Shown in pieces: positions 21,817 to 57,960 of a stretch of DNA of 64,000 nucleotides. Within the stretch, counting starts at the first letter, position 1. Every line of letters starts with the position of its first letter. Source of the stretch: Polytrichum commune. Its lineage: Eukaryota > Streptophyta > Polytrichopsida > Polytrichales > Polytrichaceae. Location: NCBI GenBank assembly GCA_950295325.1, contig OX485803.1, forward strand, positions 34,551,554-34,615,553, read 5' to 3'. Both the position numbers and the translations under genes were made by a program. The notes under the pieces were generated by a model. The model searched no databases. It saw only the letters and a list, made by a program, of their open reading frames with translations, and had not been told where the DNA came from.

Positions 21817-22558
21817 TTTCAAAATTTCTACAATCAAGACACATGGAAGAGGGCGTACCAAAAGTCTTCTTGAAGGAGCCAGTGCCATATGTTGCAGAAT
21901 CTAGTTTCAGTTTCGAATCTGATTGGTAGTCCTTAGTGTTTTGGCCAGACTAAAGTAGTAGTAGGTCTGTTTCTGTAGCCTGTTTTCTAGTGGTCAGAAT
22001 TTCACTCGGGAGGTACATCTGCAGATAGTAGGATGCTTGAGCATTATCAGTGTTCTTCCTCTTTGTATGCTACGAAAAAAGATTGTGAATTTAGAATTGG
22101 AGAGTTAGCTTCTCTCGGCACCACTGAGCATGAATTACTGAATTTTTGACTGGATCTTTTTTATTACCTTTAATACGAATTGTGCTCAGAATTTACTTGC
22201 TTACATATTCTCAAATCACGAAAGTTGAGCAATGCTACCCTCCGCATCTGTGTCTATTGCCTCGTGTGTTGTCAGGTTTGTAATTTGGCAATGGGGAAAG
22301 GCTAGACAATCTCTGGCAAAATGCTGACGCAAAAAGGCAACTCCTCGAAGGTTTAGGTCAGCACGTTGAATTTGCTGTCATGGGGCCTCAGAAAGCGCTC
22401 ATTTGTAGATCACCAGAAGAGCTTTTTGATGAGATTTTCTTGATAAAATCGCCTTGTTTCGTTGCTTTCTCCACGGTTATCCTACACCTCGCCGCCATTC
22501 TGTTCTTGCTGGTAGACTCTCCCCTTTTCTTCAGTTCTTTTGTTGGGTTTCCTCAGTA
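21817..22558 (+). other. UAP56 3' UTR and upstream region of the kinase
   Basis: Short intergenic spacer between two genes on the same strand. No further gene is seen. The frame of the kinase is open back to 22454 without an ATG. Confidence 0.5.
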
Positions 22559-23821
22559 ATGGCTGACATGAGCGGAGGCAGTAGTAACGACCTAAGTCTG
22601 AGGTCAGTCGATTCCACCAAGTGGAACTCTGTCGCATCATTCGGCTCAACAGTTAATATCGACTCGACTAACTCCTTTAGTTCGAGCACCGGAGCTCTCT
22701 CCGCGCCGGGCCAGACATCTTTCTTTTCACTGTCATTCTACGCCCGCTTGAAGAAGCTTCTCCAGCGAAAAAGCTACGCCGCCGAGCGCAACCCAACGGA
22801 GGAGAGAATCCGAACAACTCACGCCGAGATTGAGCGATCCAAAGTCCACTGGAGCGACCTAGACCCCGCTTCTGCAGATACACGAACGTCAAGAGCAAAC
22901 TGGGAAGCATTCGAGATCCTGAAGGAAAACCCCGAGTGGGGCTCTTTCTTCTCTTACTACGATGACCCTGAGGTGGAGTTAGAGTTGGTAGAGAAGATTG
23001 CCGAGGGAGGGCAAGCTGAAATCTTCTTAGCAACAGAAAGACGACGCAACAAGCAAGGAAGGTCATCCTCCTCGGTCGTCTGTGTAGCGAAGGTTTTCAA
23101 GATCGGATTCTCCTTACAAGTGCTGCAATCGCAGTGGCCTCTGGGGATGTTGCGAGATTTAAGTAGAGGCGGATCTGGGTTTCTTGCGGGGGGAATCTTG
23201 TGGGTCCGCCATGGAACCATGTTGAATGATGGTAGGTTTGCCTTCATTTTGGAGAGAATGTGGGGCGATCTTCGACGAGTTTTGGACCACAAAATGCAAA
23301 AATCCGGTGGCCCACCCTTTGACTATGATACTGCCACATTGATCATGCTTGAGATTGCTGGCGGCATGCTGGAGCTTCACCAGCGAGGAGTGATCCACAG
23401 AGACCTGAAAGCTTCCAATGTTCTTGTGGATTCTGGGTATGGAGTTGACCCAAGGGATGAAACCTTCGAATGCAAGATTGCAGACTTCGAAAGCTCGGTT
23501 GGGGTTCTGGGGACGGGGTTTTGGAGAGCTCCCGAAATTCTGCGGGCGGTGAGCGATGGGGAGGTGAACCTGCTGGACTTGTTCACCCAGGAATCAGATG
23601 TGTATAGTTATGCCATGACTTGCTATGAGATTTTAACTGGAGGCTTGCCGTTCCACGGTCATCCCAGAACAGATTATGACCTCGTTCTTAACGGTGGAAG
23701 ACCCGAGTTGCCGGAGTGGGTTACCAGTGAGCTCAAAGAGTTGTTAGAGCGCTGTTGGCATTCGAATCCTTCGTGTAGGCCCAAATTTGCAGAGATTATG
23801 GACACACTTCAGAAGCTGTAA
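22559..23821 (+). CDS. Intronless protein kinase with DFE in place of DFG
   Basis: A 420-aa protein starting MADMSGG, chosen because 22559 is the first ATG in the frame. Residues 1-130 are a serine-rich, low-complexity N terminus. The kinase domain runs from about 143 to the C terminus. It has a glycine-rich loop KIAEGGQAEIF (146-156), the ATP-binding lysine in VAKVF (178), HRDLKASN (280-287), ADFESS where DFG is expected (309-311), WRAPE (322-326), SDVYSYAMTCYEILTG and a final CRPKFAEIM. Lysine, HRD Asp and DFG Asp are all kept, so activity is possible, but the glycine of DFG is Glu. The layout is tyrosine-kinase-like (TKL). There is no signal peptide or membrane segment, so it is probably cytosolic. 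Single-exon structure beside multi-exon neighbours could mean retroposition or a lineage-specific intronless kinase family. The substrate is unknown. Confidence 0.9.
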   Translation: MADMSGGSSNDLSLRSVDSTKWNSVASFGSTVNIDSTNSFSSSTGALSAPGQTSFFSLSFYARLKKLLQRKSYAAERNPTEERIRTTHAEIERSKVHWSDLDPASADTRTSRANWEAFEILKENPEWGSFFSYYDDPEVELELVEKIAEGGQAEIFLATERRRNKQGRSSSSVVCVAKVFKIGFSLQVLQSQWPLGMLRDLSRGGSGFLAGGILWVRHGTMLNDGRFAFILERMWGDLRRVLDHKMQKSGGPPFDYDTATLIMLEIAGGMLELHQRGVIHRDLKASNVLVDSGYGVDPRDETFECKIADFESSVGVLGTGFWRAPEILRAVSDGEVNLLDLFTQESDVYSYAMTCYEILTGGLPFHGHPRTDYDLVLNGGRPELPEWVTSELKELLERCWHSNPSCRPKFAEIMDTLQKL

Positions 23822-31900: not shown

Positions 31901-32183
31901 AAGGAGGGACGCAAAATACATTTGTAGAACAATTCAACAAGGAAGAGAAGAAATCTTCTCCATCTAAGAAAAAAGAAAAGAAAAAGTAACGCCCGCACAT
32001 TGTACCGGCGTGAATGCGAGCCCGTTGTCCGAATGCTAAACACGGCGGGCCGTGTTGTAGCATGGGGAGTTGTGCCTCCGTTAGGAGGTGGGCTCTGTTA
32101 GTAAAAAATTAAAAAAAAAAAAGAAAAAAAGTATAGTGTAGGGAGGTTAGTGTAAGGAGTGGGGGGGGGGGGGGGGGGGATAT
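28905..32183. other. Gene-free stretch between the carrier gene and the LINE
   Basis: Apart from the exon-like remnant at 29559-29651, no gene is recognised. A 160-codon frame at 30245-30727 (-) is histidine/proline-rich low-complexity translation without motifs. At 30270-30290 a TATA-like CTATAAAAG occurs. At 32031-32060 there is a palindromic CACGGC/GCCGTG hairpin, and at 32161-32179 a run of 19 G. Confidence 0.4.
29559..29651 (+). pseudogene. Exon-like remnant, unknown gene
   Basis: After a splice-acceptor-like AATCACAG there are 30 open codons ending in TGA that read naturally (TQKALEKLDVGLDDPTVIAP and on, ending FSDF). The segment GLD-D, then V-A, then L-ECT recurs in the remnant at 46956-47208. 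No upstream exon joins it, and it lies beyond the end of the carrier gene. I cannot name the family. Confidence 0.3.
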
Positions 32184-32594
32184 TTAGGGGGGTGCAACGG
32201 GATTTTGTTTGTTATCGAGTTTTCTTTTATTTAATACGAGGTATGTGAGATATTTGATGGCATTTTGATGTATGTTTTTCATGAGGATTTTGATATTAGT
32301 TTTTGGGATTTTGAGGTCTTCTAATTTTTTGATGGAGTGTTCGTGTATGGCACCTCTAACTCCTGCTGTGATGGTTATAAGAGGGTTTGTTTTCCATCCC
32401 TTGCTTTGTATAGTGCTGATTAATGGGTCGTATTTGGCATGTTTGTGTGTTATGGCTTGTTCTGGGAATCTGTCGTGACAGTATGTGAATTCAATGAATT
32501 GGATGGTTCGTGCGTGGGATGGTAGCATGGGTGTTGGGGTGTGGTTAGGGGCTCCTATAATATATAGGATGTCGGGTCTTAGTCTAGCGTGACA
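32184..32594 (-). pseudogene. LINE segment: C-terminal restriction-like endonuclease core
   Basis: It is separated from the RNase H segment only by an in-frame TAG at 32595-32597, and the frame is the same on both sides. It begins CHARLRPDILYIIG, then IQFIEFTYCHDRF, then KHAKYDPLI, GWKTNPLITITAGVRG and a basic end. RPD followed by a hydrophobic strand and E matches the PD...(D/E) core of the R2-type restriction-like endonuclease. The PD-to-E spacing (26 residues) is longer than in R2. Together with the CCHC and RHN motifs just upstream it completes that module, which nicks target DNA in R2-like LINEs. Confidence 0.7.
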
Positions 32595-33611
32595 CTAACA
32601 GCCGGTTTGAGGGCATAGGCATTCAATGAGCCATTCGGGGACTGTTTGTTCTTGCTTGTTGTTGTTGATATTACCTGCATTTGTTAGTGTGTAATATCTA
32701 GTGTGTTTGTTGGCTTGGAGTGTTTGGATGATGAGATGTACTGCCTTGTTGTGGCGTGCTATTCTTAGGCCCTTTAAGTATGGGTGTTTGCACGTTGAGA
32801 GTAAGTGTGGCCATGTGTCCCTTTCATTTTTACGGCATAATGTACAGTTTGGGTTTTGAAATTTGAGGGGCCAAAAAATATTCTTTCTATGGTTACCCAT
32901 GTATTGGGCATATCGAAATTTTAAAGTTTGGGTGATTCGAGCGTCCGTTATTTTATTGTTTTTCCAAAAGTGATTGGAGAGTTTGTGGTTTATTTGGTCG
33001 TTGGAGAGCCATTTGTCTACATATGGGTGTTTATGTTGGGCCAACCTAATTTCTTGTTTTTCGTGTGTTTTTGTGATGAATGTGTGCAAGTTTCGGATTG
33101 CCCCATTGCGTGTTGCTGTGGGACAACTTGTTAGCCAATATGGTGTAGCGTGTGCGATGTGTATATGGGGTGTGGGAGTGGGTTTTTCTTTATTTGTGCC
33201 TTCGTTGGCTAGTGCATTGGCTATTTCATTTCCTTTGATGCCCGTGTGGGCACGTACTTTATGTATATGTACTAAGTGTGGTGTTAGGTAGATTTGGTGT
33301 ATTATGGCGGCTATGAGGATTTTGTCCGGGTGGTGGTGTTGTGAGGTTGGGTGTTGTATATGGTTACTAAGTAGGTATATGCTATTAAGGCTATCTGTAA
33401 AGATGTGTGTTTCGATTTTTGTGACTTGAATGGTTTTGACTGCTATGTATATAGCATTTAATTCTGCTCTAAGTATGTTTTGATATCCTGGTAGTCGTTC
33501 TGCTATACGGATGTTTGTGTTGGGGCTATATACTCCTGATCCTGCTATGTCACCCTCTATTTGACCTTCGGAGTTCTTAGTTGGTGGAATGAATGAGCCA
33601 TCTGTGTACAT
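32595..33611 (-). pseudogene. LINE segment: RNase H domain, then CCHC and RHN motifs
   Basis: 338 codons. RNase H type I motifs appear in order: YTDGS (first Asp), ILRAELNAI (Glu), IFTDSLNSI (Asp) and HTGIKGNEIAN (final Asp). All four catalytic residues are kept. Downstream come CTLC, HLLSTC and ARHN (32.75-32.85 kb), which are the CCHC zinc motif and RHN motif that precede the restriction-like nuclease core in R2-type elements. The frame continues after the stop into the nuclease segment. This is the best preserved part of the element. Confidence 0.85.
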
Positions 33612-35949
33612 GCATTGTTGTGGGTGGAATTTGGGGGATGTTGGTGGTAGTATTTAATGGGGAGGTTTGATTGGGGGATTGTTGGTGGGGGGAGGATGTT
33701 TTTTATGGGGGCGTTTTTCCATATGTTTGAGAATTTAATGTGGTAATTTGGCGTTGTGGGTTTGATTGGGAATGTGTCTATGGGTGCGTTGATGGTATGT
33801 TCTAGTACTTGTGCGAGGTCTTGTGGGGTTTTTAGGCTTGGTGTGAGTTTGGCATGGTTATGTATACATAGTATTGTTGTGAGTGAGGGTTCTACGTATT
33901 GGTATTATTTTGGCCATTCCGGCATAGGGTTATATAGTATGGTATGCGGAGGGATGGTTGTGAGGGTGTGTATGTCACCATTTGTGGTAAGTAGGATTTG
34001 TTGTGTGGTCCAGTCGTTATGGTTGATTATGAGTATGGTGATCGTGTTTGAGTCTTCTTTGGCCGCCATTCTAGCCCAGTGGATGGCTTCAATGGTTGTT
34101 TTATGGTCTGTGGGGTAGGCTAGACCAATACCTTTCCATCTAGATATTTGTGCATGTCCTAGGGAGCCAAATATTATGTCTCGGTTATGGGGTGAGTGAT
34201 ATTGTGTGAGTTGTGTGGGGCATGTGAGTGGGGATGAATAGTAGGAGTGCGTGATTTTGAGGGATTTTATTAATGTTGTGATAATTGTCGGGTGTATTGT
34301 ATGGTGCATGTTTTGGGGTTGTATGTTTTTTGGCTTTCTTTTGGGGAGTATGGTTATGTATCTTTGTATTAGCCGAAGTATTTCAGTTTCAAAGTTTTGT
34401 GGTGGGGGTTGGAGGGCTTTTGTAGTTTGTGAGAAGTGGTGGTAAGAGAATTGGTTCCATAGCCATTGTAGCCTTTCTGTAGTGATAGTGGCCATGTAGT
34501 TTCCTTTTTGGTCATATATGTTGGCTTCGGAGTTTTGTAGTTGGATGGTTGGTTGGTTTACTTGAATGTCTTTATCCGGGTTGCATTCTTATCTGTATAA
34601 TTTTAGGTTGGTGATGTGAAGAGGGGGGTGTATGAATTTGTTGTCTTTTGATTGTATGTGGTTGAGGCAATTAGCATATGTGTGGGTGGCTAATAGTTCG
34701 GCTTGTTTTGTGTGATATTGTGTAATACATCGTATGTTATGTTCTAGAAATATATTATCCGGGTGTAGTAGTTCTACCTCACTTCTCCATTGTTGTGTGA
34801 TGCCTTGTGGGGCTTGCCATTGGCAAAGGTAGTTCGTCCTTATTGCTTGTGCACCCCATTTGTCTTTTTTGGTGGAGGTCTTTTCTTTTATTATTGTTTG
34901 GATTGCTTGTCCTAAGGGGGGGGGGATGTTGACCATGACCTCGCTTTGTGGTGGTGTTTGTTGTATTGGGTTTGTAGAGTTTGTGGGTGGGGGGGGGGAA
35001 CATTATTGTTGCTTGTTGGAGAGTCTCTTTGATGGTTTTGGGTATGTGTTTGTATGTGGATTGAAATTCTTTTGGGGTTAGTATGGCTTTGGTAGTGGGG
35101 TTTTGGATTTGTGTTAGTGTGGTAATGCCGTATATGTATAGTTTGTCTAGATATTTTTGGGTCTTGGCTTTGGATATATCCGTTAGGGTGTTATAATTTG
35201 GGTTGATTTTCCAAGTTCTTTCTAGTGATGTTTCTTTGATGGGGAATGCTTGGCTTGTAGAGTGGACGTGGATTTCGTATTCTCTTTCAAGGAGAAAGAG
35301 TGTTCGGGCTATAGGGGAACGGACACATGCTTGTTGTTTGAATTTGGGAAGGTGTTGGACCCCACCATACTTGGCCGCTATATGTTTGGTTAGCCCTTGG
35401 TATATAATGCCTAATTGACCCGGGTCGTTAAGTGCTTGGATTAGTTGTTGTCCTATGTATCGGATGTAGTCGGGTAGTAGGGAGGTTACGTTAATGCCAA
35501 AGCTCTCTTGTGGGAGGTGGGTGAGGATGTTGGCCGAGTTTTTAGGGATGTTGCAAATTTCTTTGGTTAATTTGCTAATGATTTTATCTAATTTTTTAAT
35601 ATCCGGTTTGGAGAATGGGACGGCGTAGTAGGCGTATGCTATTCGCGGTTTAATGACTGTATTCAAGATTTTGATTTTTTGTGTGAGGCTAGCCGGTGAG
35701 GTAGTTAGGAGTTGGCTTTGTTGTTTGACTTTCTTCATCGTTATTTTTTTTTGTTGGTTCCATTTGAATGACGGTGTAAGGTTTATTCTTAAGGACGTAT
35801 ATGGTTCGTTTTGGGTGAGGATGGGGAAATTTTGAGAGTTGTATGTGATATGTTGTGATTGGATGTATGCTTTGAAGGTAGAGGGTTTTAGTTTAGATTT
35901 ATTAGGGCATCCAGTAATGACACATTTTGATAGGTTGAGGTCCATGTGG
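33612..35949 (-). pseudogene. LINE segment: RT thumb and long linker to RNase H
   Basis: It continues from the RT across an in-frame TGA (about 35951) that probably replaced a Trp codon (FAK-stop-SHMDLNLSKCVITG; LINEs usually have Trp there). A large open stretch to about 34940 includes IKPRIAYAYYAVPFS, the thumb region. A frameshift falls at poly-G/poly-C tracts near 34920-35000. Three further in-frame stops lie at about 34590, 33905 and 33656. The linker of several hundred residues has no domain that I can name. Confidence 0.65.
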
Positions 35950-37349
35950 GATCATTTCGCGAATTTTTGGAGTTTTGTCACTTGTGGTTGAATGTGTAGT
36001 ATATTGTCTGTTATAATAGCTAGGTTATCCGCATAAGCGGTTGTGGTGCATGTGGCCGATGACGTGTTGAAATGATAACCTATATTGTCTTTCTCGAGCC
36101 ATCTTAGTAGTGGTTTGAGAAAAATGATAAAAAAATATGGGCTAAGGGTGTCCCCTTGTATTGTCCCGCGGCTTATTTTTATGGGGGGCGTCGTGCCAAA
36201 ATGACTCCCGGTGAAGAATGTGGTGGAATTGGTGTAGATATTGCCTACGATTTCTACCGCATTTAATGGGTAGCCTAGGTCCTTCATTATGACTAGGAGT
36301 CTTGCGTGGTCTATAGAGCCGAAGGCATTTTTAAAGTCTATATACGTTAAGTATATGTCTTTTGTGATTAGTCTTGCGTCTTCTAAGGTTGCTATAATTG
36401 TTTGAATTTGGCTCGAGGTGTTACGTTGTGATCGAAAACCTTCTTGGCTAAAGTGTAGTAATCTATGTTTTTCTCCGTAGTTTGTTAGGAATGATATTAG
36501 TGTGCTAGTGTGTAGTTTATAAATTGTATTAGCTAGTGAAATTGGTCTATAGTTGGATATGTGGGTGGGGTCATCATTTTTGTGTAATAAGATGGTCTTA
36601 TTATGTTTCTAGTATTGCGGGATCACTCTTTGTTTATAACAATGTTTGAAAAATAAGTATAGGAGGTCCTGCCATTGTATTGGTAGTGTTTTAATGATAT
36701 CATTTGGGATATTGTCTGGGCCCGAGGCTTTCCCTTTTGTTAGGCTTTTGACGCAACAGTCGTAGACTTCTCTAGTGAATTGGTTACTTATTTGTGTGTT
36801 TGGGTTGCCTCGTTTTTCTAAGATGATTCTTTGATGTGAGTGCCACGGATATTTTTGTATTGCACATATGCACGTATTAAGATGGTCCGTGGTGTCCTCA
36901 CATAGGGGGGCTTGTCTTTGGAATGATGTTTGTTGGGTATGGTATATCTTCTTGGCTATCTCGGCGGGGTTGGTGAAGATTTGACCTTGGGGGTTTTGTA
37001 TACAATCAAGTATGTTGGTGGTTGTGGGGTTAAATATTTTTTTGTGGATTATTTTGGGTTTAGTGTTTAGTAAGATTATATATTTGTTAATGGTTGCTTT
37101 GCAATTAAGTAAAGTTTGCTTGGTTATGAATTTGGGGCTTCTATCTTCGCGCATTTTCCTATGATGGCTAGCTGTGCAATCCATGTGTATATTTCTGTGG
37201 GGTGGAGGGGTGGTGGTGGAATATTGGGGTTTCTTATTAGTTGGAGGTTTTTGATATCTGAGTGGTTATGTAGTTGTGTGTGCGGGTAGTGACATGCGGC
37301 TCTGATGGCTTTCCGGGTGTTGTGGTATATTCTTTCAGTTGATGTTTCC
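35950..37349 (-). pseudogene. LINE segment: reverse transcriptase
   Basis: RT motifs occur in order: KGKASGPDNIPNDIIK, then NYRPISLANTIYK, EGFRSQRNTSSQI, motif A TYIDFKNAFGSIDH (Asp codon at 36336-36338), RGTIQGDTLSPYFFI, and motif C at 36024-36035. Motif C reads AYADN where YADD is expected. A TAG at about 36610 interrupts the strand between motifs (VIPQY-stop-KHNKTILLHKND) where a Trp is usual. Frameshifts near 37150 and 37350 separate it from the APE segment. It is non-functional as it stands. Confidence 0.85.
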
Positions 37350-38558
37350 ATTTATTCTGTTGGGTCCTGGGAATGAATCCTCTTTGGGATTTTATCCTAT
37401 TTGGTAGAGGTGGGGTGGGGTGTGTCATGCATGTCTGTTCTATGCATTGATTGAGAGAGTTGGTAATTTCTTGGAGTTTGAATTGTGCGTCTTCCCATTG
37501 TGTGGGGGTAAAATATTCTTGTTGGAGTATTTGTGTGAGGTTTTCTATTGCTATATTTTGTTTTCCTATAAAAGTTGTTTGTAGGTTTTGGAGGTTGTTG
37601 AGGGGTATGTGGTATGTGATTCGTGGGGTATTTATGGGGGTGGTGGTTTCTTTGATGACTATAGTATTGGGGGCTAATTGTAGTTGGACCGGGTAGTGAT
37701 CTGAGTTTTGATTTAGGTTGGTTAACGTGTGACTATGAAGATTGGTGATATTGGGGTCGTTGGTGTAGAAGCCATCTATATGGCTAGTTGATGTGTAGTT
37801 GTGGCCTCCTTGCCTTGTGAATTTTATTGGGTTATGGACCGCTTTGAGTCCGTTGTGTCGTATGAAGCATGCCCATTTTTGGTCGTCCGTATTAGGCGGA
37901 GTGGAAGTGCTATTATTAGTTCTTCCTTGTAGTAATATATCGCGGTTAAAGTCTCTGGCTAGGATGATGGTATGTTTGGGGTGTTGTAGTATGATGTTTT
38001 GAATTTGGTTTTGGATTTCGGGTATTAGGTACTCGTCTTCTAAGTGTGATGGTATGTACATGTTGAGGATGATTAGCGGTGTTAGTGGTTTGTTATTGAT
38101 TATTATGGCTTGTAGGTAGGGTGAAATTAAGCTTGGAGTTGGTACTTTGGTGATGTTTTCATTTGTGTATATTGATATTGGTATCATGGCTAGGATGCCA
38201 CCTCTAGCTTGCATGGGGCCCGCATATTTATTTTGTTTTTGGGATGTGGTGTTTGAGTTGTTGTATATGATTTTGTATTCTTTTAGTTGGCGGTCTATAT
38301 ATGATGTGGATTTTGTTTTTGGGATTTTGGTTTCTTGGATGAGTATAATGTGAGGGTTGTCGTGTAGTGTTTGGGTGAGTTCTTGGATACCGGGTAGGCC
38401 AGAGTTGATACATCCGGTGTTCCAAGTGATTATTTTCAGGGTTCGAGTTGTTGGATTGTTTGGCCTAGTGTGTATGTGTGGAATGTCATAGTTAGGTATG
38501 TGTGTGTTGGGTTGGTATCCTGTTATTTTGTGGGTGCATTTAGTTAGTTCTTGTACTA
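37350..38558 (-). pseudogene. LINE segment: APE-type endonuclease
   Basis: An open frame from the MITE insertion to about 37240. Motifs occur in order: KIITWNTGCINSG (metal-binding Asn), IILIQETKI (catalytic Glu), the central part with NMYIPS, ILARDFNRD (Asp and Asn of the GDFN motif kept, Gly changed to Arg), SHIDGFY and NSDHYP (final Asp-His). All catalytic residues are present. This is the exonuclease-endonuclease-phosphatase fold that nicks target DNA in most LINEs. Confidence 0.85.
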
Positions 38559-38884
38559 CCGTAACACCATAGCAGGTTCATCACCTGGCAAACGAATATT
38601 TATTTTTTTTGAAAAAATAAGGTTCGTTTGCTAAAAATACATTTTTTTGAAATTCGTTCTTCTATTTTGAGAAAAAATAATAATTCATCCTGGAACAGAG
38701 TAGATGTACCGAGATGACAACTTAAATTGATTTTTCAACAGAGTCTGCTTCACCCAACTTTCTGGATTTTCGTTATTTTCATAATATAATTTTCCATAAT
38801 TTCGTTCTTCATGGCTTGGAATTTCTGATTTTTTTCGTTTTTTTTTTGGAATTATTTAAGAACGAACCTGCTATGGTGTTACGG
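38559..38884. mobile_element. TA-target MITE inserted in the LINE, 326 bp
   Basis: Ends CCGTAACACCATAGCAGGTTC and the exact inverse GAACCTGCTATGGTGTTACGG are flanked by TA (38557-38558 and 38885-38886). The body is A/T-rich. Removing the element and one TA joins the LINE reading frame exactly. The ends differ from the TA MITEs at 3.7 and 9.8 kb, so this is a separate family. Confidence 0.9.
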
Positions 38885-40171
38885 TATTTTATTTGGGATG
38901 TGGGGTATTTCATTTTGTAGGTTTTCTGCGGTTACGGGTACTCCTTTAGTGATTTTGTTACTGATGATGGAGTAAGCTTGTGGTATGGTGATTATTGTCG
39001 GGGTATGTATGTTATGTTCGTATGATGTGTGTGGGTGCGTATTCATTGGCATTTTTTGTATTCTTCGGAGGATGGTTAGGTATTTTGGGTCAAGTTTGTT
39101 AGTCATTTTTTGATTACATATTTGTGGTAGTGGGCTATATGTTATGATAAGGGCGTAAATTTGGTGGTGTGTGGGGTAGTTTGAGAGTAGTGATGAGTGG
39201 TTTTTTAGGTGTGTTAAATCTTGGGAGTCGGGGGTGTTTTGGGAGTTGGGGGTGTTTTTGTTTAAGTGGGGTTCAAATAGTTTTTCAAGGTGGGCGTATT
39301 GGGGTTTGAGTGTTAGGGTATTTGGAATAAAATATTGTTTTTGTCTTTGTGTGTATTCTTTGGGGAGGTTTTTGAGGATGGTTGAAAGCGGTCCCGGGTT
39401 TTGTTCAATATCTCCGTGTAGGAGTATGAGTGTAGAGTTGTTCCAAGTGTAATGTGTTATGGTTTTCGTTTTTGGTTTTTTGTGGTATGTGTGTGTTATG
39501 TAGTAAATGTTGCCTATATATATCATTATATTAATGTGGGTGATTGTGTGTGTTGTATTGTTGTGATTTGTATATAGGTTGTGGCATATGTTGCTTATGA
39601 GGGTTAGCATGTCTATTGGGGCCATTGGTGAGGTTATTTTATTTTGGGTGTGATGTTGATTGTCATAATTGTTGTAGGAGTGTTTGTGTGTATTGTAAGT
39701 GTGGGTGTTGCCTTTATTGGGGTTGGGGTGGTATGTGGTAAGTGGGTGTGGTTGTTGTGTGAAGTGGTTATGGGATTTGCATGAATGTGGTTTATTGTAT
39801 ATATGGTTGTTGAGGGGGTGTGTGGAGGGGATTTGGGTGTTAATGAAGGGTTGTGTTGTGGGTGTATGTTGTATTGGCTTATAGGGGGGGATTGTGTTGT
39901 AGGTCTTGTTATGTGTGAAGGTTGTATGAGACATTTTAAATGGGAATTTTTTTGGTGGAGTAGTATGGGGGTCATATTTGTTATGATATGTAAGATTATC
40001 TTGGTTGGTGACGGGGAGGTGGCTTATCCATATTAGAAGGGTGAGACTTAGTGTTATTATTTTTTTCATGCGGTAGTGTGAATGTGTATGGGGGATTGGT
40101 GATGTGTATGGGGGTAGCTCTCTTATGGGTTTTCCGGTTTGTAGTTGGTGGTGCTTGGTGTGGGTGTTTTT
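38885..40171 (-). pseudogene. LINE segment containing the 2A ribosome-skipping motif
   Basis: One open frame of about 429 codons. The first two thirds are Thr/His/Asn/Pro-rich with a hydrophobic stretch (MKKIITLSLTLLIWI). At 39389-39412 the motif DIEQNPGP is preceded by LILLHG. It fits the 2A consensus D(V/I)ExNPGP and the usual leucine-rich lead-in. In 2A peptides the ribosome skips the Gly-Pro bond and releases two proteins. About 55 residues after it comes a low-complexity NTPNSQNTPDSQD, then a more ordered region leading to the APE domain. 2A motifs are known from trypanosome L1Tc/ingi and some animal LINEs. I know of no well-studied plant example. Confidence 0.85.
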
Positions 40172-40317
40172 CACTAGTAGAAAATTCTGCGTCCGGATCA
40201 ACAGAAAGGCGTTGGTCGCGGTTGTCACTTAGGACGCGTTGACCTGGACATGATGTAACACAATTTTGTTGATTTTTTCTGTTGATATGGTCACAAAAAT
40301 ATTTTTTTTAAAAAACT

Positions 40318-40319
<2 letters not shown>

Positions 40320-40359
<40 letters not shown>

Positions 40360-40566
40360 AAAAATTAAAAAATGAATAAATGTCAGATCTGTATTTCCTA
40401 ACCCCTCCCAAATAACCCTCAACCTATACCTCACCTACAAGTATAGACTACCTACCACTCACATAGGTGGCAAGGCCAAGGCCGAAGGTGTCGGCCACGG
40501 GAATCGAACCTTGCACCTAGTGATACGCACACATGTGCCTTAACCACTAGGTCATCACATCACACA
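40320..40566 (-). mobile_element. tRNA-derived SINE
   Basis: Read on the - strand from about 40566: TGATGACCTAGTGGTTAAGG (box A) and, 34 nt later, GGTTCGATTCC (perfect box B), both internal RNA polymerase III promoter elements. The body then runs through a GGGAGGGGTTAGG segment to an A/T-rich tail and a (TA)n run at 40320-40350. The region does not close into an acceptor stem, so this is a SINE rather than a tRNA gene. It lies inside the CACTA-like element. Confidence 0.75.
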
Positions 40567-40639
40567 TGATATAAATGGAGTGTTTTAAACCTTTCTAGAA
40601 TAAGGCCACTAATTTCTCTTTACTACCTACTTGATGTAT

Positions 40640-41110
40640 ATATTTACAGTAAATATATACAGTATATAATTACAGTATATAATTACAGTATATAATTACA
40701 GTAAATATATACAGTATATAATTACAGTAAATATATACAGTATATAATTACAGTAAATATATACAGTATATAATTACAGTATATAATTACAGTAAATATA
40801 TACAGTATATAATTATAGTAAATAATTACAGTATATAATTACAGTATATAATTACAGTAAATATATACTGTATATAATTACAGTAAATATATACTATATA
40901 TAATTACTGTAAATGTATACATATTTATATATTATATATTATATACATACATGTTACATATATTGTATACATATATTATATACATATATGTAACATATAT
41001 TATATATATACACATTATATACATATTATACATATTAATATGAATTCATATACATATACATATTAATATATACATATTAATATATACATATTAATATATA
41101 TATATATAAT
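40640..41110. repeat. AT-rich minisatellite built from ATTACAG and ATACAG units
   Basis: From 40648 to about 40915 the words TATATAATTACAG and TAAATATATACAG alternate about 20 times. Further right it decays into TATACATATTAATA-type repeats. It lies inside the CACTA-like element, beside the SINE. Confidence 0.9.
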
Positions 41111-41441
41111 ATTAACTATCAACTAATATAATATTTATAATATTTACACACCTTTGAATTCGTAATTATTTCCATACCCATACATTTACAAGACCATAAA
41201 TTGCAAAAAATTAAAAATATTTTACAATATTCCAATAGATCCTAGAATATTCCAAAAAGATTCCACATTTACTAAAATTTTGTTGATTTGGTCATTGTAC
41301 TATTCTAATTAACAAAAATGTAGGCAGTAAACTGTTGATTTTTACAAAAATTCAAAAATCAGTGAAATCGGTCATTGTAGTGCCCAGATCGACAAAGATC
41401 TGTTGATTTTTTGTTGATTTGGTCATGATTTTCTAGTAGTG

Positions 41442-42589
41442 TTTGTTGTGCCAATACAAAGGTTTTAGTGTGTTTGTGTATTTTTTGCTATAGGGGGGAT
41501 ATGTAGGGAGATACATAAAGTAAGAGAGTACTTGGAGTAGGAACAAGAATGTGTGCTCTTTATTATAAAATAACATCAAACTATAACATATAAGGTAGAG
41601 TGGCCATTTGTGATATGCTAAGGGGGCACTATCCATTAAATGTATGGGGTCCTTGATGGTACATTTGTTGGTTGTTTTGGAATACGGGGGGGGGGGGGCT
41701 TGGAGTGGTAGAGGTGAGGCGGTTGTGTTGAGGCCGTGTGTTGTTGGTGATGGGGCGGACCTATGCAATAGCTCCGGGGCGGACCTATGCAATAGCTCCG
41801 GGGCGGCGGTGGAGAGGCCGGTGATGATGCCTTGCATGCGGATGTTGGATTGTTGGAACTCATGTGCTATCGTACCAAGGAGCGCATGGAGGTTGGTGGA
41901 GTGGTTGGTGATGGTCGTTGTGGTTGCATCGTGTCTCCGTTCCGTGTGGTTGTTTATGGTGGTAGTGAGAGAGCTAAACTTCTCATTTAGTTTATCCTCG
42001 AATTCCTTCATGATTTTTGTAAGATGCTTCTTGGTGATGAGTGGGTTGAGGTTAGTGGCGTTACCCATAGCTTGGATTTTATCCGCGATGACTTCTCTAA
42101 CGGAAGCTTGGGCTAGTCGGATCGCCATCTTGTTGGGGGCCGTTCCGTCGATGCTCCCATGGTGCGGAATGAAGTCGATGTGTTGTCCTAGAATGTAGGT
42201 GGACTTATGTATCCATGCCGTGTAGACCGCGGCATTAAGACACTGAATGTGGCACCATTCCGCTTGCTTGTTGGTGGTGCCTTGATTAGTGTTGCCAAAG
42301 CTAATGCCTACGACATTGTCTTTTCCAAAAATTTGCTTGATGGCCTTGATGATGGCGGTTGGTGTCTCGCGTTGTGGGAGGTTATTAGCCACTAGAGTTG
42401 TGCTAATTCGGAGTTCGGATGGGTTGCCGCCATTCCTATCGCGGGTGATGCTCACTTGTAACCTCTCGTTGTTGTAGACAATTCCTTCATTGAGTACTAA
42501 ATCCCTAGCCTCCTCCATGGTGAGAGTAAGAAAAACAAATTTTTTATCTAGTTCCGGTTTGGCAAAACCCATAAACTCGTGTTGGTGAC
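41442..42589 (-). pseudogene. LINE ORF1 segment: RRM-like domain, coiled coil, hydrophobic tail
   Basis: An open frame of 382 codons between two transposon insertions. In order: KKFVFLTLTMEEARDLV, an RRM-like fold beginning STTLVANNLPQR with AEWCHIQCLNAAVYTAWI as the likely RNP1 strand, then a heptad-like region (KHLTKIMKEFEDKLNEKFSS through the early 200s of the segment) suggesting a coiled coil. A tandemly duplicated SAPELLHR follows (24-bp unit twice, 41760-41808), then a proline-rich run and a hydrophobic segment (PLYLICYSLMLFY, FLFLLQVLSYFMYL). RNA-binding plus coiled coil is the usual design of LINE ORF1 proteins, which package the RNA. Confidence 0.65.
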
Positions 42590-43301
42590 TTGGGGGGTGC
42601 ACCTTTCATTAAAACCTAGAATCATGTGCGTTCACTGCATACTCTAAAAACCCCCTATATACAAGTTATTTTTTGTGAAATGAAGTAATACACATACAAT
42701 TGCAACAATAAATATACAAGTGACAATATGTATACACAAGAAAAACATCCATTCATATATAGTCATTAACATAAGTATACAAATATACTTTTGAACAATA
42801 ATCAACCCCTATAATATGTATAACAAAATATCCTAGCTTTTATCAGCAAAGTCGTTGAAAACTTTTTCATCTCCGGATGTAACTCATAAACATTTGATTC
42901 ACCAATATATGTCATTGTAGCCAATGCAATTATTGTCTCTAAGTCTACCATCAATTGATCAGTAAGATCATATGTCCACTTGTTGTTAGCCCCTTTTTGA
43001 TACCAACATAAACCAATCTCCACGTTTGATGGACGGTCCATCAAGTCAATTGGATCCCTATAGTCCACCCAACGATTACCAAACGATTTCATCCAATATG
43101 AAAACTTATGATATTTAGTATAGTAACAGTACCATACAAGTACAATTATTGTATACTTTTTAAAGGACTTCCATATATGTACGTAACTATAAATTATAAC
43201 ATGTATACCATATGTATACGTAATACGGCAAGGTCCAAATCAATACCCCTCTTGTGCACTCACGTATACTCGTACATGTTTAGTACAGTGCACCCCCCGA
43301 G
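42590..43301. mobile_element. MULE-like element inserted in LINE ORF1, 712 bp
   Basis: The ends carry inverted GGGGGGTGCAC (42592-42602) and GTGCACCCCCC (43288-43298). The flanks are a perfect 9-bp direct repeat GTTGGTGAC (42581-42589 and 43302-43310). A 9-bp duplication is characteristic of Mutator-like elements, although the inverted ends are short. Deleting the element and one 9-mer keeps the LINE frame open. It is AT-rich inside and carries one protein-like frame. Confidence 0.85.
42802..43092 (-). pseudogene. Protein-like frame inside the MULE-like element
   Basis: 96 open codons with balanced composition (WVDYRDPIDLMDRPSNVEIG, then LCWYQKGANNKWTYDL, ending YYRG). It could be a scrap of the transposase or of a captured host gene. 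I recognise no family. The position of the true start is unknown. Confidence 0.3.
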
Positions 43302-43798
43302 GTTGGTGACCATTGTAGTAACTCTCTTGCACTAGTGACTCAAAGATGGTGGATGCATGTTCATGGCGAAGGGTTTCACTTTTGAGGTGTAACCTTAGGT
43401 TGCGGGCTTTAGTAACTAATTCATATCCCTTTTCTACTTTACCTATAACCTTTTCACCATCCTCCATTGTCATAACAAATGCTCTATGGCCTCTAAGTAG
43501 TGCTATGCCATCTTGTTGTGGGTTTTTTAGATGTACCTTAATGAAACCCGCCCAATGCTTGGTGACGGCGTTGGTCCCAATGTCGATTGGGTTGGAGTAA
43601 GTTGAGCCAAGTGGGATGTCCATTTGTCGTAGTCGTTCCACGCATGCTCCTCGTGCTTCGTGTTTGCTCATGCCTTTGAAGCCGTAGTTGAAACGGATGG
43701 TGATGTGGAAGCCCTCGGAAAGTCCGGTGGTGGTGTCGCAACCCTTGCTAGCCCCCTTAGCAATCTTGCCAATTTTCCTTTCTAGCAAAGGTTACAAG
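43302..43798 (-). pseudogene. LINE ORF1 segment: first RRM-like region
   Basis: 162 codons from about 43788 to the MULE-like insertion: KIGKIAKGASKG, then GFHITIRFNYGFKGMSKHEA, FIKVHLKNPQQ, and a beta-alpha-beta-like RAFVMTMEDGEKVIG. It joins in frame across the insertion to 42589 and below. Upstream it is cut by the LTR-like insertion, with a stop at 43792-43794. Confidence 0.55.
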
Positions 43799-44792
43799 TG
43801 CTAACCCTTCGCATTCCGCCATGCTAATGGATAGCTCCTCTTACCCCGGACCAATAGTTCATAGGAGGGAACCAACCCTCCTACTTTGCTTTCGGGACTC
43901 ACCCCTTAATCGGTAACCCATTTCCCCAATGTGGACTTCCATCTATGGAAGTCCAATCCTATGTTGATCATCGCGTTGCCGGAGCAACACTACAACAACC
44001 CGAAGCATACTAGGCAACTATGGCCTCACAATAGGCCAAAGCCCATGGACGCCTTGCCGTTCGGCCTCGGGTGGGTGAGGCCACACCACCTCACCCATAT
44101 AAGCCTCTAGGACTTCACGCGGGGCCCCTACCCCACCGTCAACCAACCTCTTGTCTCCCTACCAAGAGTTGGGGCCAAGTGGACATTTTCCTTTAGCTGC
44201 TGGGCCTAGAACCCCCCAGCAGCTTCAGACCATCATAACTTCCTTGTATGATGTCTGATCATAACAACCAACCACTCCATCCTCATCTACGCTTCACGTA
44301 GATGCCGATGGACTCCTCACTTGCTCCATTCGAGCAAGTCTTGAGCAAGTTATGCCTGTTTGAACCTTGGCAGTCCCGGGAATCCCTCCCAGGCACTGCT
44401 GTACCAGGGCGCTGTCCCGGGACAGCGCCCCACTCAAATGGCCATAACTCCTAGCTCACACCTCCGATTGAGGTGTTCTTGAGCATTCTAGAATCACCAC
44501 GCCATGAGCTATGCATAGCTCATGGCCTTACCCTTGTGCCTCCTAGTCTTCGTGGGTGGGAGGCGTTCCCAACGCCCGGGGCCCTCACCCACACTAGGAT
44601 CACTTGGGCCCTCTCACCAACGGCACCACAAGTCCCGGGTGTCACTCCGGGGTCCCCCTTGTGCCCATGGTGTTTTGGGTACTCCTCATGGAGAGGTGCG
44701 CGACAGGTGGGGTCCACTCGTTCTTGCCTTGGGATTTGTGTGAAGTGGAGGTGGTTGCCGGGTACCGCATCCGGCCTCTCATTTGGATAACA
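43799..44792 (+). mobile_element. Probable solo LTR, 994 bp, rich in palindromes
   Basis: GC-richer block interrupting LINE ORF1. It starts TGCTAACC and ends GGATAACA, giving TG...CA with short inverted ends as in LTRs. It includes a TATA-like CATATAAG near 44094 and phrases like CATAACTTCCTTGTATGATG, common in plant LTRs. Perfect palindromes lie at 44407-44430 (24 bp) and 44501-44526 (26 bp), with hairpins at 43934-43955, 44196-44223 and 44285-44305. No 5-bp target duplication was found, so the boundaries and the solo-LTR label are tentative. Confidence 0.45.
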
Positions 44793-46133
44793 TATTTATG
44801 GGACTCTCGGAAATGCACGTATAATGGTTTTGAACTCTAGGACTTCATTTGTGGGGGGTCCTAGTTTCTCAAATTCCGCATGGGTACGAGTTTCATGGAT
44901 GATTCCCTTACCCCTTTGTGTAGCGATGGCCTCGTGTATTGAGAAGCCTAACCACATGTGTGACACAATGTCAATGCTTGGAATTGCCTCTTTGGTGCGC
45001 ATGTTTGAAAGTTTGCTTGCGTCGGAGTTGAGTGCATGACCCCCTACTTCACTCCTCCTATGTTTGGCGCTTTGAGTGTCTTTCACGGACTCTTGCCTAG
45101 GGCTTTTGTGTGGGTTGTTTGGAGGTGTTGCTTCGTCAAGGTTGATGATGTCCATTTGGTCGAGCGACATGGCGGCTTGGCGGGGGGCGGCCAAGTACTC
45201 ATCGTTTGAGGTTGAGATGTGAAGGGAGCTTCCCCCATGCTCGGGTGTGACATTGTTGAGCTGCATGTCGATGTCGGCATCTTGGTAGGGTGTGGTCTTC
45301 CCCTTAAAAAGTGTTGGTTGGCTGGGCAGTATGGCGATCTCTTCATCATCGTCGCTGTAAGCTTGAATAAGTGCCCTTCTTCTGCCTGCACTTCGTGTGC
45401 TGGTGAGGCTGTGGTGGTTACTGTTGGAGCTATTGAGTTTTCGACTGGTCCCGACCTCGGTTCTGGTGCCGCCTCCGTCCCTGCCGTTGGCTGCTCCGTT
45501 GGCAGTCTCGCTGTCTCCTCCCGCTCCTGCTCCCGCTCCTGCTCCCGCTCCCGCACCTAGGCCGGTGTAGAGCTTACTGACGCCGCCCGCTCCCGCCCCT
45601 GTGCTGGTGTTGAGCTGCCCTCCGCTCTTTCTTGCCTCCATTCTGCCTTCGGCGCTGCTTTTGTGGCTGCTGTTGCTCATTCTGCTACCGGACCATGGGT
45701 GTCTTCGCGCAAGAACTGCCTGGATGTTCGATCCTCCGCGCATTCGGGGCGCTGCTTCTTGATCTGCGGCTGTTGGGTTGTGGACTTCGGTGCTGGGCGT
45801 CATTGTGTCTGGGAGGGAGGTGGGAGAGGTGGGAGAGGTGTGAGAGGTGGTGGGGAGAGATGTGTGAGAGGTGGGGGGGAGAGATGTGTGAGAGGTGAGA
45901 GGGATAGAAGTGTGCGAGGTGAGAGGGGGAGGAGTGTGGGAATGTGAGGTATGAGGGTATTTGAGTGTGTGTGTGTAGCGAGAGAGGTGGGTGGCGGACT
46001 GTTGTTTTTGGGTGTGTGAGTGGGTGTGTGAGGTTGTTTTTGTGGGTTTCTGCATTCTTAGGGTGGCGGGTTGTATTGTCAGATCTAATATGGGGGAGTG
46101 AGGTGTATTTTGGTTGAGTGTGGGGTGTTGCAT
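44793..46133 (-). pseudogene. LINE ORF1 N-terminal region, low complexity then acidic
   Basis: A 445-codon frame. The first 150 residues are repetitive (TSHTSLP-type repeats). Then come a (GA)n run, a Ser-rich stretch, an acidic patch (SDDDEEIAIL) and a more ordered C-terminal part (IPSIDIVSHMWLGFSIHEAI, HETRTHAEFEKLGPP). It stops at 44796, just outside the LTR-like block. Assignment to the LINE rests on strand, position and plausible continuity. Overlapping frames in the repetitive part are also open, so the exact frame before about 45600 is uncertain. Confidence 0.45.
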
Positions 46134-46955
46134 GCTTTGTGTGGGTTGGATTGTTTGTTGGGTGGGCGGTTTTTGGGGTTATGGGTGGTGAACCCGTGTG
46201 TGTGACAGTGTTTTGCTTATGTCTTATGTGTTTTTTGGTGGTTTTCTGACAAGGAGGTGGCTGATCTTGCTTTGTGGGGAGGATCTTGGAGCGGCGATGT
46301 GCTTTTTTTGAAGGTAAGTTTGGAACTAGTGTGTTTTGGGTATTTGGGTGATTTTTGGTGTTGGTAGGTGTTTGATAGGTGCAAGTGGTGTTTCTAACCA
46401 TTGGGTGTGTGGGTTTGTGTGGTGTGGGCGGCGGCGGCAGCATTGGTGCTTGTGGAGTGCGATCCGAGCTTGGAGATGGCTCTTGCTGGTGGTGTAGGGT
46501 TAGAGGTAGTGGGGAGTAGTAGTTTGATAGGGGGCCCTCTGGTGGGTTTTCTTTCGGTGTTATTGTGGAGGTGTGGCGTTTTGGTGAGTAGGTATTGGGT
46601 GGCAGCATTGAGTGGTAGTGGTATCTTGATAGATAGAGTGGTGAAGGGAGCTTTTGTGAGGGAGCTTTGTGAGGTGTGTAGATACACAGGGTTAAGGTGC
46701 TTATAAGCACCCATATTGTAATGAAGGGTGTAACCCTTTTGTTGTTGGTGAATGTTGGTGAGGTCTCACTCCCGTCTTCTTTCTGTTCTGGATCGGGATC
46801 TGAGTTTCTGCTCCTCCTCTTGCATCTGTGTCTGCTTGGGTTGGTTGCGGCCGGTGGTGTCAGCCGGTGGTGTCGGCCTTCTGCTGCTGCGGGGGCTTCT
46901 CTTGCTGCTACCACTCCGTTAGTGTCTGGGTTCTCTCCATCTAACATCTAACCAT
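46134..46955 (-). other. Low-complexity region, possible LINE 5' UTR or LTR remnant
   Basis: A frame stays open on the - strand from 46947 to 45685, but it is Pro/Thr/His-rich and overlaps the previous entry in another frame. On the + strand the stretch 46690-46949 looks like an LTR R-U5: a palindromic GGTGCTTATAAGCACC, a T-rich part and the end TCTCCATCTAACA. I cannot decide between the two readings. Confidence 0.3.
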
Positions 46956-51361: not shown

Positions 51362-51974
51362 TTAGATTCATCCATAACTTAACTTATACCGGCCAGTCCA
51401 ACATTGGTCCGGACTTCAAAACACCAACACAAGGACAGGGTACAGCCAAAGCAAGGGTGAGTGATGCTGACGTGGAGTCGACGAATGAGGAGGCGCCACG
51501 GAGGCCAAGCGGGTTAGGTGGGTGCGCGAGCAAACATCGTCCCGGGTGCACAGCTGCACATGTGCGTTGTCGCTTGCGGCAAACCTCGAGGAGCATCGGC
51601 ACCTTGACTAACTGACTTCGCAAAGAATGATTCCTGATGTACCGCATTGCGCCGACGCGGTGTACCCTGAATCGGCTAGACTGGTCCAATCGACGCACAT
51701 ACTATGAAGGTAGACTCAAACCAAAAATATTCCACATCGGCATCAACAATAACCAACTGTATAACTCGCCCTCCATCTACCGATCACTTCATCATTGATC
51801 ACTACAAGTATAAGAGCATGAGCTAAGTTAATCTCTAGCAGTCCGCCGGTATAACCCTGCGATGACCTTGATATAGATTTTGATGGCGGCGAGATTGGGT
51901 TGAGCGACTTGGAGGAGCTGAATCTGCTGAGTGAATTCCCTGCTAGATATTGCGGTGTTTGGGATTGATTTAGG
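51362..51974 (+). other. Upstream region of the first SAUR gene
   Basis: GC-richer than the flanking DNA, with no other gene. No canonical TGTCTC auxin-response element was spotted close to the start, but I did not scan exhaustively. Confidence 0.35.
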
Positions 51975-52469
51975 ATGGCGGCAACAAGGAAGATCACCAA
52001 GTTGTTGAGAAAGGTTCTGCCGATTTCTACCTCGGAAGGTAGTACTGTTCGGTCCATGAATCCGAGCTTGGGCGATTCAAGCAGGTCAATCGAGTCGTCT
52101 GCAAGTTCTAGTGGTTCGGGAGCTAGCTCCAGCTCAAGGGGATCATCTTCGTCGTGGGAGAGTTCTAATTTCCCGGACTTGACGACTAGCTGCACCGTGC
52201 CTGTGCCAGACATACCCGCCGGGTGTCTAGCCGTGTACGTTGGCCACGAGCGCAGGAGGTTCGTGATCCCGGCGTCCTACCTCACCAACACCGTCTTCCA
52301 GTCGTTGTTGGCAAAGACGGCGGAGGAGTTTGGGTTCCGGTGCGATGGCAGCTTGCGCATTGCTTGCACTCCCGATGTGTTTGAGCATTATCTATGGTGT
52401 CTTGAAGGCCCATGGAAGGAGAGGCGACAATGCTTTTGGAGGAAGAGGAAAAGCAGGATAGCAGCTTAG
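51975..52469 (+). CDS. SAUR-family auxin-responsive protein
   Basis: A 164-aa intronless protein, as is usual for SAUR genes. Residues 1-70 are a basic start (MAATRKITKLLRKVL) and a Ser/Gly-rich linker. The SAUR domain is about 76-145: DIPAGCLAVYVGHERRRFVI, then SYLTNTVFQSLLAKTAEEFG, CDGSLRIACTPDVFEHYLW. A basic tail (WRKRKSRIAA) follows. In flowering plants SAUR proteins inhibit PP2C-D phosphatases and so promote plasma-membrane H+-ATPase activity and cell expansion; function in this lineage is inferred. The start is the first in-frame ATG. It faces the SAUR at 56844-57209. Confidence 0.93.
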   Translation: MAATRKITKLLRKVLPISTSEGSTVRSMNPSLGDSSRSIESSASSSGSGASSSSRGSSSSWESSNFPDLTTSCTVPVPDIPAGCLAVYVGHERRRFVIPASYLTNTVFQSLLAKTAEEFGFRCDGSLRIACTPDVFEHYLWCLEGPWKERRQCFWRKRKSRIAA

Positions 52470-56843: not shown

Positions 56844-57209
56844 CTACCATACCAAGTTCTCAAAAACATCGGGAGTGCAGGCAATCCGCAGGCCGCCGTC
56901 ACACCTGAACCCAAACTCTTCCGCCGACTTTGCCAATAACGCCTGGAAGACGCTATTGGTGAGATACGAAATCGGAATGACGAACCTCCTCCGCTCATGG
57001 CCAACGTATACTGCCAGACTTCCCTCGGGGATATCATCAGGGCTACTAGAACAAGTCGCGGAGCAACATTCATGGGCTGTCTCCAACTCGGATTGCTGTG
57101 ACTCGAACGAATTGGTGATGCAGGAATACCCGCGAGCATTGCTTGGGATAGTACAAAACTGCAGGAGAACGTTTTTGAAGAACCTGCGCATCTTCTTTAA
57201 TGCCGCCAT
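56844..57209 (-). CDS. SAUR-family auxin-responsive protein, short C terminus
   Basis: A 121-aa intronless SAUR starting MAALKKMRRFFKNVL. The domain is DIPEGSLAVYVGHERRRFVI, then SYLTNSVFQALLAKSAEEFG, CDGGLRIACTPDVFENLVW, and then a stop. It is closely related to the SAUR at 51975 (same core, same RIACTPDVFE ending), so the two are likely tandem duplicates, one inverted. It ends right after the domain, about 17 residues sooner than its neighbour. It is otherwise intact. The first ATG in frame was chosen. Confidence 0.92.
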   Translation of the reverse strand: MAALKKMRRFFKNVLLQFCTIPSNARGYSCITNSFESQQSELETAHECCSATCSSSPDDIPEGSLAVYVGHERRRFVIPISYLTNSVFQALLAKSAEEFGFRCDGGLRIACTPDVFENLVW

Positions 57210-57960
57210 GGTTTCAATTACACCTACAGCGACTAAATCTCCTATGACATCATTGAAATGCTCGGAGGTCTTGGCGTGTGCAGCTTATGATCTGCATCTT
57301 AATGTTCACGTACACTTAACCGTCAAGAGCTTGATCAGATCATATACCGATCGCCACACCAAGTTTGTGAAAGGATTCAGTCTGCTAGCAAATTAGTTCA
57401 TGAGTAGAGTACAGTCTACAGAACTGCGAGATGGCGACACCTTGTCCTTCATTTTTCCCTGTTTGCAGCTTCTTCAAACTTTTATGTAGAGTCTGGAAGT
57501 AGCACAAATCCCAACCCTCAAGTTGACCACAGCTCTAGTCCCAACCCGTGATCGAATCCACACGGAAACAGTGGAAGACTTATCCAAGGAATCGGATCAC
57601 CCCTCAAGTTCTCTACTTCTGACCCAACATCGATCTAACATTGGGGTAAATGGTAGAGCTGCTAGAGGAGGTACATCTACAGATCTCCCAGATTTGAGAC
57701 AGAGGTGACGAACTTCATCAGGGGCCCGGTGAACGATCGCCAACCGAGTCCTCTGATTTGTCGTCTATCTTCAAGTCTAAAGACTAGTACACACTACAGG
57801 AGGTTAGCGAACGACAAGAGACATGTGGTGACAGCCGCAATCGCTGCTCATCATCGATCAGCTACTTTGTTCGAATGAGCCGGAGGCTCGGAGCAGGAAG
57901 TCATTCCTCATCACGCTCCACCCTTTTCTTTTCCCTGAGTCATGATCATTTTCTTATGTA
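57210..57960. other. Upstream region of the second SAUR gene
   Basis: No gene seen. The - strand promoter of the SAUR gene should lie here. Confidence 0.35.

Follow-up and report, generated by a model that had tools for sequence, protein, structure and literature searches.

A probable 2A/StopGo peptide in an APE-type LINE lineage of a land-plant genome

2A peptides, which are widely used as tools in plants, act on the ribosome that is making them: the nascent chain ending in ...GDIExNPG brings the ribosome to a halt and is let go at Gly, after which elongation continues with Pro. A 2A was reportedly described by Heras in 2006 in the trypanosome LINE L1Tc, and Odon is said to have described others in 2013 in APE-type LINEs of multicellular organisms, where a leucine-rich tract and GD(I/V)ExNPGP lie upstream of the endonuclease-reverse transcriptase (RT); the latter cases are reportedly animals. 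We know of no plant LINE with a 2A. Titles and passages of the literature likewise place 2A in LINEs of trypanosomes and other multicellular organisms, and among the matches listed, no plant LINE with a 2A appears in the titles and abstract starts of the open literature on 2A in LINEs or in the available passages of PMC5009743, PMC8310308 and PMC8623073. For viruses, the available excerpts of a survey of nearly 10,000 StopGo sequences in virus genomes report no evidence of natural plant-virus use and put six apparent plant-virus cases down to host misclassification (PMC12846837).

Within a window of 64,000 nucleotides, the whole stretch of DNA analysed here, a 2A core is present in a decayed LINE on the minus strand (Table 1), and we consider it likely that it represents a genuine 2A/StopGo peptide belonging to an APE-type LINE lineage in a land-plant genome. 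The arrangement is reminiscent of trypanosome L1Tc, in that the 2A lies on the N-terminal side of the APE-endonuclease/RT polyprotein of a LINE, and the window core is identical to what we take to be the L1Tc core, GDIEQNPGP. It differs from L1Tc in its land-plant host, in the long hydrophobic leader before the 2A, and in having relatives with tandem modules and a variable position 14 (p14). Compared with the APE-type LINEs of multicellular organisms, which are reportedly from animals, the present lineage has a plant host and a p14 diversified to His and Gln. For an element hosted by a plant, such use of 2A seems to be new, and a LINE family of this kind with a conserved 2A would add plants to the natural users of 2A.

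Table 1. Positions of the LINE, its 2A motif, nested insertions and neighbouring genes in the 64,000-nucleotide window.
Feature	Coordinates	Strand	Basis or remark
Putative target-site duplication TCTCCATCTAA, 3' end of LINE	31957..31967	.	11-mer repeat
RNase H (E 1.2e-13)	32595..33653	-	Pfam
PCIF1_WW-like domain (E 1.6e-8)	33905..34588	-	Pfam
RT C-terminal/linker region	34779..35951	-	best relative 78% identical over 81% of region
Reverse transcriptase (RVT_1, E 2e-24)	35952..36608	-	Pfam
APE-type endonuclease (Exo_endo_phos_2, E 2.4e-6)	37237..38577	-	Pfam
MITE-like insertion between 2A frame and endonuclease, ends CCGTAACACCATAGCAGGTTC, TA both sides	38559..38884	.	sequence ends, relatives' homology
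Open frame with leader end, 2A and linker to endonuclease, 449 aa	38879..40228	-	19 homologues
2A/StopGo core octapeptide DIEQNPGP	39389..39412	-	six-frame scan
2A with L-rich upstream tract LILLHGDIEQNPGP	39389..39430	-	resembles L-rich upstream classes of PMC12846837
DNA-transposon insertion between ORF1-like/leader-start frame and 2A frame, CACTA-like ends CACTAGTAGAAAAT, TTT both sides	40172..41441	.	sequence ends
ORF1-like frame running into leader	41433..42605	-	no Pfam match above cut-off
Leader start, Met at 41636, MDSAPLAYHKW..., like ORF starts of relatives	41454..41636	-	alignment, tblastn
Third TIR-ended insertion, in ORF1-like region, TTGGTGAC both sides	about 42590..43302	.	boundaries by eye
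Upstream part of ORF1-like region	43240..43791	-	no Pfam match
Putative target-site duplication TCTCCATCTAA, 5' end of LINE	46934..46944	.	11-mer repeat
SAUR gene (Auxin_inducible, PF02519, E 2.6e-24)	51969-52469	+	Pfam
SAUR gene (Auxin_inducible, PF02519, E 1.8e-25)	56844-57284	-	Pfam

The eight codons of DIEQNPGP hold the sole NPGP in all six frames of the window. The octapeptide agrees with (D/G/C/N)(V/I)ExNPGP, the core definition given in the excerpts of PMC12846837, and the canonical 2A core claimed by the first-pass annotation is thus borne out for the window copy. Upstream of the core lies a leucine-rich tract resembling the LLLLSG-like classes excerpted from that survey. This viral StopGo class shares with the window the core octapeptide, Gly at p11 and the leucine-rich tract, and differs in its carrier, which is here a retrotransposon and not a virus; p10 is His in the window, Ala, Ser or Cys being usual at p10 in the L-rich classes (excerpts of PMC12846837). 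Since the frame is P/N/T-rich and of low complexity, a chance match was weighed. Markov simulation gives 0.7 NPGP per window, so that the tetrapeptide alone is not rare by chance, whereas none of 60 simulated windows and none of 300 simulated LINE regions contained D(V/I)ExNPGP (analytic expectation approximately 6e-5 per window, with the composition of the 2A frame). Even with the relatives left aside, chance is an unlikely source of the full core. Moreover, 42 of 50 family rows have NPGP at this site (see below), which already contradicts chance and is, in our judgement, a stronger argument for the motif being real than the chance statistics; the probability left to a chance match is negligible.

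The minus-strand order of the carrier is ORF1-like region, 2A frame, APE-type endonuclease, RT, PCIF1_WW match and RNase H, the endonuclease, RT and RNase H domains supporting the LINE that had been claimed at this locus. The carrier is read as a decayed APE-type LINE, perhaps 15 kb in length. Stops and frame changes lie between endonuclease and RNase H in the window copy, which, because of these and of its insertions, must be considered dead as an element and would not itself make the enzymes. Exo_endo_phos_2 and RVT_1 occupy separate frames in this decayed copy, and both are in one ORF in the relative P0038. The 11-mer TCTCCATCTAA flanks 31968-46933, in agreement with the strand-composition borders; approximately 0.2 matches of this kind would arise by chance between the stretches compared, and the pair is suggestive only of a nearly full-length element including its inserts. 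Of the direct-repeat families in 28000-50000, the 20 largest listed include no LTR-like pair. The segment 43800-44600 is GC-rich, without the A/C-rich strand bias of the LINE, and is perhaps one more insertion inside the element.

The LINE is interrupted by three TIR-ended insertions (Table 1), two of which, the CACTA-like and the MITE-like one, are read as later than the LINE. After subtraction of 1270+3 and 326+2 bases, an arithmetic on insertion coordinates only, the ORF1-like, 2A and endonuclease frames are in register, and ORF1-like region, leader, 2A and endonuclease form one frame. Fetched relatives compared with the window by tblastn showed homology over 34079-38562 and 38885-39706, which stops only a few bases from either border of the MITE-like insertion and fits the insertion reading; 41454-41636 and 32299-32376 were covered by one alignment each. 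Leader end, 2A and endonuclease lie in one ORF, with NPGP kept, in P0005, P0007, P0009, P0020, P0022, P0023 and P0024, and these seven match the leader-end/2A/endonuclease profile nearly end to end. P0021 likewise has a single ORF over this profile, with NPDP in place of NPGP. The single reading frame across the motif that had been proposed is consistent with both lines of evidence, the insertion arithmetic in the window and the unbroken ORFs of the seven relatives. The CACTA-like insertion contains, at 40629-40915, a 13-bp AT-rich tandem repeat with 21 copies in register.

The plant host assumed by the first-pass annotation is supported by two SAUR (Auxin_inducible) genes in the same window. 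SAURs are, to our knowledge, restricted to streptophytes, and the window is therefore from a land plant or a close relative. This host assignment applies to the window copy and not to the database relatives. The window also contains a long protein-kinase-like open frame at 22433-23821 (+) (PK_Tyr_Ser-Thr, E 1.2e-28).

To examine conservation of the motif in other copies of the family, as had been advised when the motif was first noted, proteins related to the 2A frame were collected. A search with this frame returned 19 proteins, 28-56% identical to it over the alignment, and a profile search returned 193, of which 120 were listed and used. The profile alignment of 128 database proteins and the window comprised 136 aligned stretches. 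The core was not reached by 84 of these, many predicted ORFs beginning downstream of it, and P0014 and P0032, which cover the core partly and without NPGP, were left out of the count; the core is covered ungapped by 50 rows from 45 proteins (44 from the database and the window). NPGP is kept in 42 of these 50 rows, 22 of them with the full expanded canonical core and 20 with another core change. Single columns are conserved to a similar or greater extent (D12 49/50, N16 50/50, P17 45/50, G18 48/50, P19 48/50), Gly is found at p11 in 47 of 50 rows, p6-p9 are mostly L or I, and p10 is G, C, S or H. Flanking columns vary while the core is kept, and p15, which is free in 2A, varies too. The 2A motif is evidently a trait of the family.

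Copies lacking NPGP, which had been named in advance as evidence against a 2A, do occur: the eight remaining rows have NLGP (four), NLGL, NPDP, NPEP or NPGL (one each), seven differing from NPGP at one residue and one at two. Decay is a likely reason for these losses, although two of the eight sit in ORFs of at least 650 aa. Among relatives with the core and an ORF of this length, 15 of 17 keep NPGP, the exceptions being P0021 and P0033. To reduce the bias that arises when the motif is part of the query, a second model was built from sequence downstream of the motif only. This model gave 57 matches that begin near the motif, 12 with too little upstream sequence; NPGP is kept in 35 of 45, while nine differ at one residue and one at two, and some bias remains because the candidates were first collected with queries that include the motif. 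Rows outside the downstream-only model have NPGP in 34 of 42. By entropy in these 42 rows, core positions 11, 12, 16, 17, 18 and 19 together take ranks 1, 5, 8, 9, 11 and 18 of 262 columns and stand among the best-kept endonuclease residues. No DNA of the relatives was found in scans of viral_contigs and genome_contigs.

The one core position that varies widely is p14, with Glu in 28, His in 13, Gln in eight and Lys in one of the 50 rows. The assertion of the first-pass annotation that the motif is canonical at every fixed position consequently stands for the window copy, which keeps Glu, and fails for the family, where 22 of 50 rows carry His, Gln or Lys instead of Glu. The family is split in two, with 100/100 support, in a tree computed solely from the downstream region for the 41 rows that contain enough of it; the other nine of the 50 were too short there. 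In the sister clade, Glu is found at p14 in 19 of 20 rows, the core is fully canonical in 13 of 20, and NPGP is lost in five of 20. The window's clade of 21 rows has His in 10, Gln in seven, Glu in three and Lys in one (18 of 21 non-Glu), with NPGP kept in 19 and lost in two. At least nine changes among the four p14 states are needed on this tree, in which the places of the long rows P0001 (first module), P0013 (second module), P0114 and P0033 are unsure. Position 14, usually taken as fixed, thus appears to have been exchanged repeatedly in the window's clade while NPGP stayed. In P0036, P0046 and P0050 of the sister clade, Met stands directly after NPGP (NPGPMPNIL or similar), and several gene predictions start there.

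The repeated drift of p14 to His, Gln and Lys is what might be expected if GD(I/V)xxNPGP were an ordinary structural or binding motif without skipping in this clade, maybe a relic of an ancestral 2A with Glu lost. Residues conserved at least 36 positions upstream of N16 (YYTWNNS, KxPK), beyond the minimal need of a 2A, and the loss of NPGP in eight of 50 rows, two in long ORFs, are consistent with such a motif. However, the best-kept positions are those that 2A needs, p15 varies as it is free to do in 2A, and Glu is present at p14 in the window copy and nearly throughout the sister clade. Moreover, according to a 2026 study, p14 = His is a rare natural viral variant with approximately 90% activity or more in reticulocyte lysate, and in the excerpts of this source His alone is tested active at p14, Gln and Lys not being among the flagged variants (PMC12846837). 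We regard a purely structural motif as distinctly unlikely. Under the preferred reading, a genuine 2A, the natural series of p14 variants would be ready material on the strictness of the 2A mechanism.

Another explanation is internal initiation or reinitiation near the motif as the source of the downstream enzyme, with NPGP as an incidental feature: 13 of 50 rows, most of them in the sister clade, have a Met directly after NPGP, and this residue is the start of several predicted ORFs. These starts are, however, choices of the gene caller. In the window NPGP is followed by Leu, and its clade has Leu at this place in 11 of 21 rows and Met in one (P0009). Internal initiation would furthermore leave the conservation of NPGP unexplained, and leader end and endonuclease share one open frame in the seven relatives named above; we consider it very improbable.

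If the motif is a genuine 2A, an intact element would have one mRNA frame with leader, 2A at the leader end, linker, endonuclease and RT, the PCIF1-like domain and RNase H following further on. Stalling of the peptidyl-transferase centre by the nascent ...LLxxGDIExNPG would lead to release of the leader at Gly. The ribosome would be expected to skip the bond from this Gly to the last Pro and to continue with that Pro, yielding a separate endonuclease-RT protein with no internal start. A 2A would in this way explain two proteins from one frame in such an element. The probable benefit would be that the enzyme half, bound for nuclear DNA, is freed from a hydrophobic and maybe membrane-directed leader. 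According to the excerpted sources, 2A works in plant cells (PMC4981915), with the caution that some upstream ER-translocated, signal-bearing proteins inhibit it (PMC2978324).

Immediately before the 2A lies a leader that is hydrophobic, of low complexity and T/N/H/P-rich, with the ORF1-like region further upstream; Pfam found no RNA-binding domain in the ORF1-like region (43791-43240 and 42605-41433). The motif had been placed between RNA-binding and enzymatic halves, and of this placement the downstream, enzymatic half is supported, while its immediate upstream neighbour is the leader. From Met 41636 to the Gly of NPG the frame has 324 codons, insertion discounted. Among six relatives tested, the leader starts of P0003, P0006, P0023 and P0024 align to that of the window (z 11 to 15 versus shuffles), as does a stretch of P0019 from 14 residues in (z 7.5), and the leader-start Met region is thus common to five of the six; Met 41636 may be the true start of the second ORF. 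The start of P0083 was not a clear match (z 2.3, with nine of 300 shuffles scoring as high).

Leader pieces were more hydrophobic locally than their own shuffles in 12 of 25 cases (23 relatives, and the window as two pieces), and no segment of the window pieces passed a strict hydropathy cut-off. Because only 12 of 25 pieces exceed the composition-based expectation, a membrane-directed leader is a weak idea and would be only a possible reason for the split. The sea-urchin NLR signal-sequence 2A is similarly tied to hydrophobic sequence and possibly to two destinations; there, as far as the excerpts describe it, the 2A itself is the 26-aa N-terminal signal, whereas here the leader spans approximately 300 aa and its hydrophobic part lies well upstream (PMC4981915).

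A second copy of the leader start was observed inside the leader of P0006 (about 255-280) and of P0023 (about 190-227), hinting at module duplication or at template switching between copies. Tandem 2A modules, two or three per ORF, are found in P0001, P0013, P0015 and P0016, that is, in four of the 44 database proteins covering the core. Together, the inner leader copies and the tandem modules suggest duplication, and perhaps exchange, in the evolution of the 5' part of the LINE. Multiple-2A picornaviruses, as excerpted from PMC11512398, also combine several NPGP modules within a single frame; in contrast to these, the modules here are mostly tandem duplicates of the same LINE segment, and the second module of P0015 is broken (NPGL).

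With respect to the placement of the lineage among LINEs, the plant L1 domain set consists of DUF4283, zf-RVT and RVT_3, for none of which was there a Pfam match in the ORFs scanned in the window. In a comparison with solved structures only, the RT scores better against R2 (E 4e-19) than against human L1 ORF2p (E 4e-7). A poplar LINE paper, in its excerpts, assigns plant LINEs to the L1 and RTE clades (PMC11288735). A wider reading, tentative and in our view on the unlikely side, is that of a giant plant-hosted LINE lineage, possibly outside L1/RTE, with 2A as a tunable switch: Glu14 would skip almost fully, and His14, Gln14 and tandem 2As partly, setting the ratio of free to leader-fused endonuclease-RT. 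If true, this would be the first plant-hosted element to employ 2A naturally, and one that also carries a PCIF1-like (cap methyltransferase-like) domain.

This domain, related to a cap m6Am methyltransferase family, lies between RT and RNase H at 33905-34588 (-), and is a candidate from Pfam, where it scored 34.7 bits against a cut-off of 31.1 in the window. Sequence searches of the domain against solved structures listed no PCIF1 entry, and its predicted structure was unusable (mean pLDDT 37.7). Activity of the domain is doubtful, because NPPF, which we take to be the motif of the PCIF1 enzyme, seems by eye to be replaced by YPTD in the window and by HPPD in the relative P0156. Among the matches listed for PCIF1 with retrotransposon or transposon, titles and abstract starts mention no PCIF1 domain on a LINE. 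In P0156, residues 370-472 are likewise PCIF1_WW-like (E 1.3e-6, 28.5 bits, just below the cut-off) and adjoin the RT C-terminal region.
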